Shown: positions 995 through 24,007 of the stretch, in pieces
How the letters are laid out: every line of letters begins with the position of its first letter
Position numbering within the stretch: position 1 is the first letter of the stretch
Virus record (IMG/VR): IMGVR_UViG_3300027791_001640
Location: 1-24,903 of that record
Direction: 5' to 3' (one strand)
Origin: a virus
DNA length: 24,903 nucleotides
Program-made: the position numbers and the translations under genes
Notes under the pieces: generated by a model
Told to the model about the DNA's origin: nothing
The model's input: only the letters and a program-made list of their open reading frames with translations
The model's database searches: none

Positions 995-1216
995 TTAAGA
1001 GGATTCGATTAAAGTAATGTTGGCGGCTTGACGGCCTTTGGCTCCTTGTACAACCTCAAATGAAACTGCTTGACCTTCTTTCAACGATTTGAAACCTTCG
1101 GATTGAATTGCCGAATAGTGTGCAAATACATCGTCGGAACCATCATCAGGCTTAATGAAGCCCCAGCCCTTTGCGTCTTGAAACCACTTTACCTTGCCTG
1201 TTAATTCTGTTGCCAT
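995..1216 (-). CDS. Cold-shock protein, CspA family
   Basis: 73 residues forming one cold-shock domain. Both RNA-binding motifs are present: RNP1 KGWGFI at 16-21 and RNP2 VFAHYSAI at 30-37, after the typical GKVKWF start. Family members bind single-stranded RNA or DNA, melt mRNA secondary structure and can act as antiterminators in the cytoplasm. Length is normal for a bacterial Csp. A purine-rich site (AGAAGG) precedes the ATG, and a GATAAATA late motif lies 52 bases upstream, so it is probably expressed as a phage gene. It sits between the two parts of the TRAP system. A link with translation of those genes is possible but is only inference from position. Confidence 0.95.
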
Positions 1217-18566: not shown

Positions 18567-19964
18567 TTAAGCATCTCTAGTTAATCCTAAATTTCTTAAC
18601 TTATCCCTATTAACAGAAGAAGACGTAGATTGTGGTTGCTCTGTTGGAGTAACTATTGTACTACTTGTCTTATGTAGTTTGTTGAATACTGTAGTTGCCG
18701 AACTTGCTATTGGCTCTGCATCTTCTGCTAAATCTGAGATTAACAATGTAGTTGGATCAAAGTCCATCTCAAGTTTCTGTCCAACTGCACTACTGCTTCT
18801 TGTTTTCATAAACTGTAGTTGCACTCTATTTCTTTCTCGCATACTCGGAGTACTATATATACCAAACACATTATCTGCCGTTTGTATCTTACTTAAACCA
18901 CCAGCAATCATACTATGGTCAAATTCAACACTTTCTACGGCACTTCTGTTTAACTGCGATGCAGTTGCAAATAATAGATTCTCGGTAACTGCTAGATTTC
19001 TTAATTCCTCACTAACAATCTTATCTTTAATGTATAAATCAGCAACACTAATCTTTTGTCCTGCTGGCATCATTAAGTCTAAGTAATCTACAAGTATTGC
19101 ATCAACATGTATCTTACGTTGTGTTTGAAATTCTCTAATCCATGCTAATAAATCGTTTGCAGTAACACTATTTGGTAACTGTACAATCTGTAAACACCCT
19201 GATTTCTTTCCAATCATACGAACTTTCAAATCAATGTCATCAATTTTCTTGTAAACATCTCTAGTAGATGTTCCTGTTAACATTGCGTCCATTCTCATAG
19301 AACATAAGCCCTCACTTAGCTCTAAACTAAAGTAAACAGTATTCAGTCCTGCTTTTGCCCAATTTAGTCCTAAGTTTTGTAAGAACAAACTTTTACCAGC
19401 ACCAGATGCACCTGCAAATATGTTTAGTTCTCCTCTATTAAATCCTCCATATAACTTATTATCAACAGTTGTCCAACCAGTTGTCAACTGTCCATTTGCA
19501 TCTTTAAGTCCTTCTAGTCTCTCTTTAGGATTTTCAAAATAGTTTGTGCCAAATGTCTTTGGAAGTCCAACTTGTACTGCGGCTTTAATTAAGTTTTCAA
19601 CTTCTCCGTAGTTACTTTTTTCTAATAAGTCAGCACTAGTTAGAATTGCACCTTCTAATGCTTTATGTCTAGAAAATCCTTCAAACTCATCTAAGAACCA
19701 TTCTTTATGTTCTTCTGCTTTGCCGCCAATTTCTAATATCTCAATAGAAGTAACTGCCGTAAGTTGTTTTGCGTCAGGTACATTACTATGTTCAGTAATA
19801 TAATCTTTAATAAACTTTGCCGCAGGACGCAATCGACGATCAAAATATTCTGGATCTAATACATTGTTACATCTTGCCGCCAAGTCCCTGCTAGAAATAA
19901 GAAACTCTAAGAAAAGTTTCTGTAATTCATAACTATATTCTTTAATTTGTTCTTCAGCCATCAT
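18567..19964 (-). CDS. 41: Replicative DNA helicase, DnaB/T4 gp41 type
   Basis: 465 residues. Small helical N-terminal domain, then the RecA-like motor: Walker A GASGAGKS at 185-192, Walker B VDAILVDYLD with D293, and the TASQLNRSA segment of the family near 335-345. It encircles the lagging strand and unwinds DNA ahead of the polymerase together with primase. Length matches T4 gp41. It follows the 85-aa gene with an 11-base overlap, so primase, the small protein and helicase are co-translated. An ATG one codon downstream is equally possible. The C-terminal tail is Ser/Thr-rich. Confidence 0.94.
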   Translation of the reverse strand: MMAEEQIKEYSYELQKLFLEFLISSRDLAARCNNVLDPEYFDRRLRPAAKFIKDYITEHSNVPDAKQLTAVTSIEILEIGGKAEEHKEWFLDEFEGFSRHKALEGAILTSADLLEKSNYGEVENLIKAAVQVGLPKTFGTNYFENPKERLEGLKDANGQLTTGWTTVDNKLYGGFNRGELNIFAGASGAGKSLFLQNLGLNWAKAGLNTVYFSLELSEGLCSMRMDAMLTGTSTRDVYKKIDDIDLKVRMIGKKSGCLQIVQLPNSVTANDLLAWIREFQTQRKIHVDAILVDYLDLMMPAGQKISVADLYIKDKIVSEELRNLAVTENLLFATASQLNRSAVESVEFDHSMIAGGLSKIQTADNVFGIYSTPSMRERNRVQLQFMKTRSSSAVGQKLEMDFDPTTLLISDLAEDAEPIASSATTVFNKLHKTSSTIVTPTEQPQSTSSSVNRDKLRNLGLTRDA

Positions 19965-20211
19965 TGCCCCATCTAAGTTTTGCTATCATTAAGTCTTCTT
20001 TATCTCGGAATCTAAAGATCATGTCGTCTAACGATGATTGATATGCCCAACGTTTTATCGGACTAGCTTTCCAATTACTTACTTTATATGAAGGTAATCC
20101 AAATTCTGTAGTCATCCATAAAATAACTTCTTCCCAAAAGACATTATCATTTTGTCCTTCTTTCCAATCTAACTTAAAACTATAATATGGTTCTACCTTA
20201 TAACTATACAC
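19954..20211 (-). CDS. 85-aa protein between primase and helicase
   Basis: 85 residues beginning with GTG at 20211, supported by AGGAG five bases upstream. It overlaps the primase end by eight bases and the helicase start by 11. Rich in Trp and Tyr (FKLDWKEGQNDNVFWEEVIL, SNWKASPIKRWAYQS), soluble, about the size of a single small domain. I do not recognise it. Its nesting inside the primosome operon suggests a partner or adaptor for primase or helicase; this is inference. Confidence 0.75.
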   Translation of the reverse strand: MYSYKVEPYYSFKLDWKEGQNDNVFWEEVILWMTTEFGLPSYKVSNWKASPIKRWAYQSSLDDMIFRFRDKEDLMIAKLRWGNDG

Positions 20212-21163
20212 ACCATCTCCTCATTAATAATTTAACCTTCAAAGGCGAGTGTTCAATCGCCATTAATATACTTTGCAATGTTGCTACTCTACCAAAACGC
20301 AATATTGCCTCATTGGCATCTTTTACACCTGCAGGCCAGTCAGGAAAACTAACATTCCAACCTAAGTTAATTGCATCTTCGACTAACGACTTGCCACCTG
20401 GATCTTTGTCTGCTAACATTACCGGTTCTGTATCTAAATCCTCAATTAGTTGTGCTTGATATTTGCTAATTTTATTAGATAGTATAGCAACACCGCCTAT
20501 TGCTAAGGCATCATATTCACCTTCGCATACTATTGTATATTTACGTTTCTTCTGTTGCTTATCTAAGTTGAATACATATTCGTCCGGAGACTTTCTTAAC
20601 ATCTTAGCAGTTCCTTTAGGAGGATCGCCTATCCAACGTGCCATATAACCAACTACTTTTGAATTATCTGTATAAGGTAAAATAATACGTTGTTTCATTC
20701 CTATCTGGTTTGTCTGCTCCCACTTTGCTAATTTAAATATGCCTCTACCTGTTAAGTACTCAACAGCCTCATCTCTTAAATCTGTTAGTTCAAATGGATA
20801 TGGAATTTCAGGCCATTCCTTATTAAACACTTCTTGTTCTTCTTCTGCTACTTCCTCAATAACTTGATCCCATAACAAAATTTTAAGTCGCTGTATTTCA
20901 GCTTCGTCAATGCCTAATACTCGCATTAACTTAATTAATTTAAAACCTAACTTACTTCCAGATCTCCAACCAGTTGTAAATCCACAATTAAAACAATGAT
21001 AGGCAGTTTTCTCATTATCAAATCTAATGCCACCTCTGCCTTTAGTATCTGGCCTACTTTCTCCGTTATGAATACACATAGGACAATTCATAGTAGACCA
21101 ACCACTACTGTTTGTTTTCATAGGAGGCAAATAACCTCGAATCGTCGATTCAACAATACTCAT
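20204..21163 (-). CDS. 61: DNA primase, T4 gp61 type
   Basis: 319 residues. N-terminal zinc-binding domain with C27-x2-C30 (NCPMC) and C57-x2-C60 (HCFNCG), then a TOPRIM-type catalytic core: E214 in VCEGEYDALA and D252-K-D254 in LADKDPGG. It makes RNA primers for lagging-strand synthesis with the helicase. All key residues are present. The ATG has no Shine-Dalgarno site but lies six bases after the -10 box of a strong sigma70-type promoter, so the mRNA is predicted to be leaderless. First gene of primase, 85-aa protein, helicase. Confidence 0.93.
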   Translation of the reverse strand: MSIVESTIRGYLPPMKTNSSGWSTMNCPMCIHNGESRPDTKGRGGIRFDNEKTAYHCFNCGFTTGWRSGSKLGFKLIKLMRVLGIDEAEIQRLKILLWDQVIEEVAEEEQEVFNKEWPEIPYPFELTDLRDEAVEYLTGRGIFKLAKWEQTNQIGMKQRIILPYTDNSKVVGYMARWIGDPPKGTAKMLRKSPDEYVFNLDKQQKKRKYTIVCEGEYDALAIGGVAILSNKISKYQAQLIEDLDTEPVMLADKDPGGKSLVEDAINLGWNVSFPDWPAGVKDANEAILRFGRVATLQSILMAIEHSPLKVKLLMRRWCV

Positions 21164-22253: not shown

Positions 22254-22628
22254 ATGGACATTAAAATACAACAATTTTTAGAAGAATTTCCATTTATGAG
22301 CTTAGTTCGCTATGCTGATAAGGAGATTGTCGGAATAATACAAAATAGCGATAATACAGTTGTAACTATGTATCGGTATGATTTGTTAAAATCGCCCGAG
22401 GAGAAGTTATTATTCATAGAAGCTGGTGAGGAATGGTGGTGGGGAAGTAATCGTCTGCTACCAATTAATATTGTGCTTAAAGCCACAATGAAAAACTTTG
22501 CTTACTGCTTGCAGACTTATGCTACTAAGGATTTTGATATGCTTGCTGGACATTTAACTAGTTTAGAAAATGTAATTGTTAAACGTACTAAAAGACGCCA
22601 AATTAGTCTTGTTAAGAAGATGGATTAA
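22254..22628 (+). CDS. Plus-strand conserved-looking protein
   Basis: 124 residues from the ATG at 22254 (MDIKIQQFLEEFPFMSLVRY). Earlier in-frame ATGs at 22182 and 22209 would add a hydrophobic, poorly coding stretch overlapping the divergent late promoter. The protein is a compact alpha/beta type with VGIIQNSDNTVVTMYRYDLL, the Trp-rich EEWWWGSNRLLPINIVL and a basic end (VKRTKRRQISLVKK). No family recognised. No good Shine-Dalgarno site; a TATAGT at 22241-22246 could be a weak -10 box. Its end overlaps the convergent polymerase-like gene by 17 bases. Confidence 0.7.
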   Translation: MDIKIQQFLEEFPFMSLVRYADKEIVGIIQNSDNTVVTMYRYDLLKSPEEKLLFIEAGEEWWWGSNRLLPINIVLKATMKNFAYCLQTYATKDFDMLAGHLTSLENVIVKRTKRRQISLVKKMD

Positions 22629-23196
22629 TAAGTTCTTCGCATAACAAGTTCATTTGTGCTACAATCATAATTGCATATGCCGTTGCATGCGACTTCTTAA
22701 AGAAGTAATCGTTATTTGTAGGCTTCACCCAGACTTCATCCATAATCTGTTTCCATCCTTTATTAACAAGATAACGTTTTGCTGGTCTAATCATACCTAG
22801 TACTGCCGCCAGTTGTTCAATACTAGTAGGTTTTGTTGCACGAAGTATTTCTCCGTGCCCGTTTACATGTAGAAGTTTACTAGAAAACTCATCATGTGTT
22901 AGTAACTCCCATGTTGGTTCCTTTGCAATCAACTTATCTAGTTGATCTTTGTTTTGTATCTTAGAATAAAAACTAACATTTAGTAAATCAAGTTTAAAGA
23001 AACCCATGTCTTCTGCTTCTTTATGATCTAGACTGCACCAGCCCGTATAAGGATTCACAGATACAGGATGAAAGTAAACACCAGTTTTGTGTTTAGTTGC
23101 TCCATGCTCCGTTTGAATCATTGCTGGTACTCCATCGAGTATATGCAATAATTCCTCCCTATTACCAAAGTCTATATCAACGTCTGGTCTACTCAT
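22612..23196 (-). CDS. Miniature DNA polymerase III alpha-like (C-family) palm protein
   Basis: 194 residues, against about 1160 for E. coli DnaE. Motifs occur in DnaE order: PDVDIDF with D7 and D9 (like D401/D403 of DnaE), KHKTGVYFHP (DnaE HAAGVVISP-like), DMGFFKLDLLNV with D70 (like D555), TSIEQLAAVLGMIRPAK (DnaE ED-x-A-L-x-x-x-RPGP-like) and KKSHATAYAIMIVAQMNLL (DnaE NKSHA-x-AY-like). PHP, most of the fingers, the clamp-binding and OB parts are missing, yet all three catalytic aspartates remain. It may be a minimal polymerase core, a primase-like enzyme or a decoy. The start overlaps the coiled-coil gene by ATGA; next to clamp loader and zinc-finger genes. Confidence 0.82.
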   Translation of the reverse strand: MSRPDVDIDFGNREELLHILDGVPAMIQTEHGATKHKTGVYFHPVSVNPYTGWCSLDHKEAEDMGFFKLDLLNVSFYSKIQNKDQLDKLIAKEPTWELLTHDEFSSKLLHVNGHGEILRATKPTSIEQLAAVLGMIRPAKRYLVNKGWKQIMDEVWVKPTNNDYFFKKSHATAYAIMIVAQMNLLCEELINPSS

Positions 23197-23402
23197 CGTA
23201 ATCCTTGCTTAATAATGTTAATCAATTCTTCTTGTCTTTCTTTCATATCTCGCATCTCGTCATATAATAATGTTAATTTCTTATCAAATGTTGAAATACG
23301 TTTTTCTAATTGCTCCAAGTCTTGTACATGAACAGTTAGTTCAGAATCTTGTTGCACCATGTCACTTCTGTTGGGCTTTTTTGTATTGTTCTTGTCCACC
23401 AT
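23193..23402 (-). CDS. Small coiled-coil protein
   Basis: 69 residues. After a basic start (MVDKNNTKKPNRSDM), residues 23-65 have a heptad pattern (LEQLEKRISTFDKKLTLLYD, then EMRDMKERQEELINIIK), predicting a dimeric or trimeric coil. The start at 23402 has AAGGAG 12 bases upstream, inside the end of the zinc-finger gene (67-base overlap in another frame). A second ATG at 23360 is possible. It directly precedes and overlaps the polymerase-like gene, so it may be that protein's oligomerisation partner. Confidence 0.65.
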   Translation of the reverse strand: MVDKNNTKKPNRSDMVQQDSELTVHVQDLEQLEKRISTFDKKLTLLYDEMRDMKERQEELINIIKQGLR

Positions 23403-24007
23403 TCTGTGTCAATGCTCCTTGTTATAACATCTAATTGTCCAGGTTCCATTCTGTCTAATAATCTTTGTGCTGATTCGGACGAATAAATAATCCATGGACT
23501 TATCCTACCCATGACTATCGAATTCATGGCTGTTGCTGTAGGTACTTCTTGGAAATATTTCTCCCATGATACTCCAGTTTCTTCGCTCCATGACTTCATT
23601 AGTAACACCATGCGTTCTACTGCTCGTTCAACTGTTTCCAACTTACTTGTTTCTTGTATATACAAAGAGTAAGTCTCTTTTTTGTTCCAATTACTTAGTT
23701 TAACACCATGCTTAAATAACCATTTAATAAACTTATTTGTGCTTACTGGTCTTAACTCTATTATGTAACTAGAAAATTTTATAAAACCAATGTAGTCCGG
23801 ACTTCTAATAAAGTCCTCAGTAGTACGTTCTTTCTTTGTTTGCGGACTTACATACTTCATGAAATCATACCATACTTGAAAAGCAATCCTAGAAGACGGT
23901 TCGTCTATAGACATCCACCTTCTTTTCTTTTCACACATATGGCTCGATAAGGTTCTCTCCCTAGCAAACTTTTTCATGCAATACTTACATTGATAATCTG
24001 TCGTCAT
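23336..24007 (-). CDS. Zinc-finger protein of T4-like phage type
   Basis: 223 residues. N-terminal finger YQCKYCMKKFARERTLSSHM with C7-x2-C10-x12-H23-x-C25, a C2HC variant of the classical C2H2 finger, followed by KKRRW. The rest is mainly helical with many Trp and Lys residues, including SNWNKKETYSLYIQETSKLE. It probably binds DNA or RNA; the long helical part is unrecognised. It follows the clamp-loader-like gene by one base and is in the replication cluster, suggesting a replication or transcription role. Confidence 0.8.
   Translation of the reverse strand: MTTDYQCKYCMKKFARERTLSSHMCEKKRRWMSIDEPSSRIAFQVWYDFMKYVSPQTKKERTTEDFIRSPDYIGFIKFSSYIIELRPVSTNKFIKWLFKHGVKLSNWNKKETYSLYIQETSKLETVERAVERMVLLMKSWSEETGVSWEKYFQEVPTATAMNSIVMGRISPWIIYSSESAQRLLDRMEPGQLDVITRSIDTEWWTRTIQKSPTEVTWCNKILN

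Follow-up and report, generated by a model that had tools for sequence, protein, structure and literature searches.

The window analysed here is a stretch of 24,903 nucleotides of viral DNA (IMG/VR virus record IMGVR_UViG_3300027791_001640, positions 1 to 24,903). It carries an intact open reading frame (ORF) for a 194-residue protein, running from 23196 to 22612 on the minus strand, which derives from the DNA polymerase III (Pol III) alpha subunit DnaE and which we call the C half. The GS-motif part of the same palm domain is encoded in relatives of this phage by a distant, separate gene, whose product we call the partner. Split polymerases of this kind are already known, and the window represents an additional member.

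22612..23196, minus strand: C half, the probable C-terminal part of a minimal Pol III alpha subunit divided between two genes, with aspartates D5, D7, D9 and D70 and a fingers remnant (PHROG 11778)

The 194-residue protein

A first-pass annotation, made from the sequence alone, had quoted the motifs PDVDIDF, KHKTGVYFHP, DMGFFKLDLLN, TSIEQLAAVLGMIRPAK and KKSHATAYAIM without naming a strand. All are present in this order in the minus-strand frame, and the plus strand across 22612-23196 contains many stops. The protein matches PHROG 11778, 'DNA polymerase', at 7.8e-58. Aligned with DnaE of E. coli K-12 (our reference L160, 1160 residues), P4-D5-V-D7-I-D9-F of the C half falls on P400-D401-F-D403-V-D405-F, and further pairs are D70 with D555, K68 with K553 and H36 with H511 (KHAGG). 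We take the catalytic residues of E. coli DnaE to be D401, D403 and D555. The annotation had matched these with D7, D9 and D70; its placing of D70 stands, while the other two were two residues off, D5 and D7 being the counterparts of D401 and D403, and D9 that of D405.

The further claim, that every motif of the DnaE palm is kept, does not hold. The GS motif of E. coli DnaE (GPGRGS, 359-364) falls upstream of the segment where the C half begins, the window contains neither GRGS nor GRGA in any of its frames, and a search of the window with a partner profile gave no match. With 194 residues and no GS motif, the C half does not have the canonical DnaE/PolC layout, in which a single chain contains a complete palm together with fingers and PHP. 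Pfam, run on the single protein, returned only ERMP1_C (E 0.089) and DNA_pol3_finger (0.21), both below cut-off, and no PHP match; by length and Pfam, the PHP, OB and clamp-binding parts are lost, as the annotation had said. The protein derives from DnaE but is not by itself a full minimal polymerase.

By tblastn, the C half was found in 63 phage records, each with at least 80% query coverage and less than 60% identity; as RefSeq duplicates and numerous near relatives are counted among them, they do not amount to 63 independent cases. It was also found in 49 IMG/VR loci. In an alignment of 57 loci (46 from IMG/VR and 11 from phages, leaving out the partial L012, L049 and L050), the columns D.DID, H..G, K.D.L, IRP.K and F...H...Y do not vary among the 43 distinct proteins, the window's included. 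The DnaE descent and the retained catalytic aspartates that the annotation proposed are supported. The ratio of nonsynonymous to synonymous substitution rates (dN/dS) was compared over 28 pairs from eight loci of close copies with five distinct sequences, and lies at 0.042-0.085 in the 25 pairs that differ. These pairs are mutually dependent, and in all but two of the 25 dS reaches 0.85 or more. Together, the invariant columns, the PHROG match and the low dN/dS place the C half beyond chance and argue against decay, which agrees with the first reading. Among 84,980 bacterial and archaeal species, scanned with one genome each, only seven C-half loci were found, all on contigs of metagenome-assembled genomes (MAGs), a pattern that fits phage contigs binned with their hosts.

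The predicted structure of the C half has a mean predicted local distance difference test score (pLDDT) of 90.5 and a predicted template modelling score (pTM) of 0.79. In a Foldseek search, Pol III alpha and PolC entries fill the best 14 rows (top E 3.2e-4), three being named as PolC-type. When this list was re-examined with VIA-align, the 14 C-family entries scored Z 6.3-9.8 over 183-193 residues at 3.2-4.3 A, and the first row after them dropped to Z 4.2. Entries from other families had low scores and were set aside, and absence from these lists excludes nothing. The predicted fold matches the C-family palm and fingers.

The partner and the point of division

The Pfam family DNA_pol3_alpha (PF07733) matches far from the C half in 14 of 19 C-half records, comprising all 11 named phages and three of the eight IMG/VR records. 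These partner ORFs encode 161-201 residues (about 170-200 in the 11 named phages), match profile positions of about 12-98, and contain an invariant G.GRGS (14/14); the three partners tested all matched PHROG 11127, 'DNA polymerase'. The distance from C half to partner ranges from about 11 kilobases (kb) in Slicko01 to 224 kb in Phosso. In the predicted partner structure (pLDDT 82.9, below 50 for the first nine residues), 11 of 11 structural rows are C-family, at Z 7.2-12.2, aligned over model residues 60-166 only. When both models are superposed on the E. coli DnaE structure 2hnh, that of the partner spans 272-393 and that of the C half 398-784, so that the two adjoin with no overlap. By hhalign, the partner aligns with residues 323-395 of E. 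coli DnaE at a probability of 88.7%.

Querying the phage collection with the partner yielded 63 records. The partner is present in 62 of the 63 phage records with a C half: these are the 60 partner records listed, all of which fall among the 63, and two Alishewanella phages (OQ508956 and OQ508957). The lone C-half phage record with no detected partner is PP728206.1 (109.5 kb, 'UNVERIFIED'). Among IMG/VR records, both halves occur in G009 (328 kb), G018 (259 kb), G002 (244 kb), G004 (213 kb), G013 (201 kb) and G008 (76 kb), and a single half in G003 (199 kb) and G016 (200 kb); of the large IMG/VR records with a C half, two of seven have a detected partner. The C half of G002 (L009) is 86% identical to that of the window.

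The position of the cut is constant. An alignment-based IMG/VR scan confirmed the partner in at least 595 of 600 stretches, of which the best 80 were examined, together with L076. One ORF of these 81 runs off its contig end, and all 80 complete ones stop 35-43 residues past the point where GxGRGS starts. No fusion to a C half was seen among these 80, and the C-half motif occurs at none of the 81 loci (flanks of 3 kb or less), whereas a control set of C-half loci showed it in 57 of 57. A viral-contig scan with a single partner protein returned its source record alone. Of the partner matches listed, 17 are at E 1e-3 or weaker (11 Pol III alpha, three 'DNA polymerase' and three unannotated); the one inspected, LR756511.1, is a long single-chain dnaE.

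An origin by trans-splicing of a split intein was also considered. The partner ends 35-43 residues after its motif start and the aspartates of the C half follow its start after no more than a few to about 20 residues; since these short ends leave no room for intein parts, the idea was dropped.

Neighbouring genes

The C half is accompanied in the window by the following genes.

22254..22628, plus strand: convergent gene, PHROG 11637, 124 residues, overlapping the 3' end of the C half
23193..23402, minus strand: 69-residue protein, probably a coiled coil, just upstream of the C half with a 4-base overlap
23336..24007, minus strand: protein with a C2H2-like zinc-finger start, PHROG 11058, upstream on the same strand (Pfam below cut-off)
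20204..21163, minus strand: DNA primase, PHROG 47, downstream neighbour (Toprim_2 below Pfam cut-off)
18567..19964, minus strand: DnaB-like replicative helicase, PHROG 19, downstream neighbour

Much of this arrangement recurs across 60 C-half loci, many of them incomplete. A relative of PHROG 11637 lies shortly downstream on the opposite strand in 56, a primase nearby in 55, DnaB in 52, and the PHROG 11058 zinc-finger protein upstream in 48; the 69-residue protein was detected by sequence in only ten, all close relatives. In ten of 11 annotated phages, the final 4-26 bases of the C half are shared with the convergent gene. Near the partner, an annotated clamp-loader gene lies 0.7-1.1 kb downstream in three of five annotated stretches; in Phosso an AAA-ATPase gene follows at 2.6 kb, and no clamp loader is annotated near the partner in Slicko01.

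A family B polymerase was found in 12 of 19 C-half records, including all 11 named phages. A DnaQ-type exonuclease (PF00929) was found in eight of 16, and is by this test not a constant companion. In Atu_ph07 (NC_042013.1), the family B polymerase match at 212336-213688 falls in two separate reading frames, 418 and 578 residues long. The Atu_ph07 paper (PMC6102473) lists gp276 and gp277 as its DNA polymerase gene products. This phage seems to carry both of its polymerases in pieces.

Elsewhere in the window, one contig end encodes on the minus strand the TRAP transporter small permease DctQ (358-855; Pfam 2.5e-21) and the solute-binding DctP (1334-2449; 3.9e-25), with a cold-shock domain protein between them (995-1216, minus strand; CSD, 3.8e-30). 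DctP has five partial matches in the phage collection, the best at E 6e-8. It is unmatched in the related loci, which is uninformative, since the ribonucleotide reductase genes of the window are unmatched there too. DctQ and DctP may be a phage-borne transporter or mark a chimeric contig end.

A two-chain accessory polymerase

We propose that the two proteins act together as an accessory C-family polymerase beside a family B replicase, and put the probability of this reading at roughly 0.77. T4-like large phages would be the carriers of this two-gene minimal polymerase. The C half would contribute the aspartates that bind metal, along with shortened fingers, and the second protein, of about 160-200 residues and encoded elsewhere in the phage genome, the GS-motif, triphosphate-binding part of the same palm. 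The halves would bind each other, and the joined palm would add nucleotides. Given its setting near the primase-helicase and clamp-loader genes, the enzyme would probably not be the main replicase, and may extend primers and hand them off or fill gaps. The proposal draws on DnaE descent, complementary coverage of the palm, co-occurrence, catalytic residues that are conserved in the C half as in the partner, purifying selection, and the family B polymerase found in the named phages. More tentatively, and with considerable doubt, we speculate that the active site is completed only when the products of the primase-helicase and clamp-loader gene groups meet at the fork, where primers would be extended and then passed to the family B replicase, much as DnaE and PolC share labour in Gram-positive bacteria.

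A number of results weigh against the accessory polymerase. Sequence comparisons of the C half are faint: a single-sequence search of the PDB gave no match up to E 10, a profile search gave one at E 0.49, and hhalign aligned part of the half with E. coli DnaE 508-641 at a probability of 23%. The Foldseek fit of the C half is loose (query template modelling score 0.40-0.48, root-mean-square deviation 5-17 A), the Foldseek E-values of the partner are weak (best 0.11), and the structural aligner warns that Z below 8 may reflect a common arrangement. No match was found for the first 60 residues of the partner. The DnaE fingers motif GGADMLRRAM has no evident counterpart in the C half, and nucleotide binding may therefore differ or be lost. 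The partner went undetected in five of eight IMG/VR C-half records and the C half in eight of 11 IMG/VR partner records (detected in three); the window's own partner was found neither in its record (G000, 24.9 kb) nor in the near-identical L002 record (21.6 kb), both short fragments. The family B polymerase was found in only one of the eight IMG/VR records, and not in G002 (244 kb), the large record closest to the window. The case for an accessory role is made from the neighbouring genes and the family B polymerase, and the available portions of the literature hold no biochemistry for the split polymerase.

Three other explanations deserve consideration. The first-pass annotation suggested that the C half could be sufficient by itself, as a minimal nucleotidyltransferase or a primer or gap-filling enzyme, and its invariant catalytic aspartates and confident stand-alone model are in keeping with this. 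However, it lacks the GS motif that completes a Pol beta-like active site, which a different protein, encoded outside the window, conserves in 62 of the 63 phage records with a C half; we judge self-sufficiency to be very improbable. Loss of most of the fingers and of all other DnaE domains, the presence of a family B polymerase in the named phages and the position of both genes among replication genes would also suit a non-polymerising complex of the two halves with a structural or regulatory task, for example as a decoy of host Pol III or as a scaffold between primase-helicase and clamp loader. The aspartates, K68 and the GRGS of the partner are nevertheless invariant across divergent members, which would hardly be needed in a non-catalytic protein. 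This makes such a complex unlikely, and disfavours the regulator mimicking host polymerase that the annotation had suggested.

Small size and DnaE descent might, finally, suggest that a phage took up a host dnaE of which a decaying remnant is left. Against this stand the dN/dS values, conservation over the full length in 63 phage records, a constant gene order and the near absence from cellular genomes, where the seven loci are all on MAG contigs, and decay can practically be dismissed. The grounds on which the annotation would have given up its proposal were a fold unlike the DnaE palm, unconserved aspartates or the broken end of a full-length dnaE; none was found.

The split itself has close precedents. 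Iyer et al. 2021 (PMC7824862) describe, in the text available, a Pol III alpha that is both minimal and split, from the jumbo phages of their group 2.2, in which they place Atu_ph07; they propose, without experiment there, that the halves assemble into an active polymerase, and argue that the split form models an ancestral one. The CBB paper (PMC5259590) notes a truncated alpha subunit of 172 residues, and the Atu_ph07 paper an alpha subunit. As in that system, the window has a stand-alone C-half gene with Mg-binding aspartates, its relatives have a distant stand-alone GS-motif gene, and Atu_ph07 carries both genes in the present scan. In contrast, the window's phage is known from a fragment only, two phages with the pair have about 141 kb and so fall short of the usual jumbo size of 200 kb, and each half was seen in many IMG/VR contigs. 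To the available text of PMC7824862, we add the new member, the exact complementary cut, the 62/63 pairing, the absence of fusion among 80 complete ORFs, the occurrence at genome sizes of about 141 kb, and the convergent gene conserved beside the C half.

Like E. coli DnaE and PolC, the C half has the palm aspartates, the equivalent of K553 and the KHAGG, RPG and KSH motifs, and the partner has GRGS. Unlike E. coli DnaE, the phage palm is cut between about 393 and 398, comprises 194 plus about 170 residues rather than 1160, with large internal deletions, and lacks the PHP, OB and C-terminal domains. The full-length phage DnaE LR756511.1 shares GRGS, PDVDVDF and later C-family motifs, yet is an unsplit single chain of at least 1126 residues.

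In record annotations, either half is often a 'hypothetical protein' or 'putative membrane protein', or one half only is given as polymerase III alpha subunit; pairing both halves aids annotation. Cellular polymerases of the C family are large. With its two-chain palm of about 360 residues, cut in the same loop in every complete copy examined, this could be the smallest catalytic core of the C family, and the split palm could provide a way to test the catalytic needs of DnaE.
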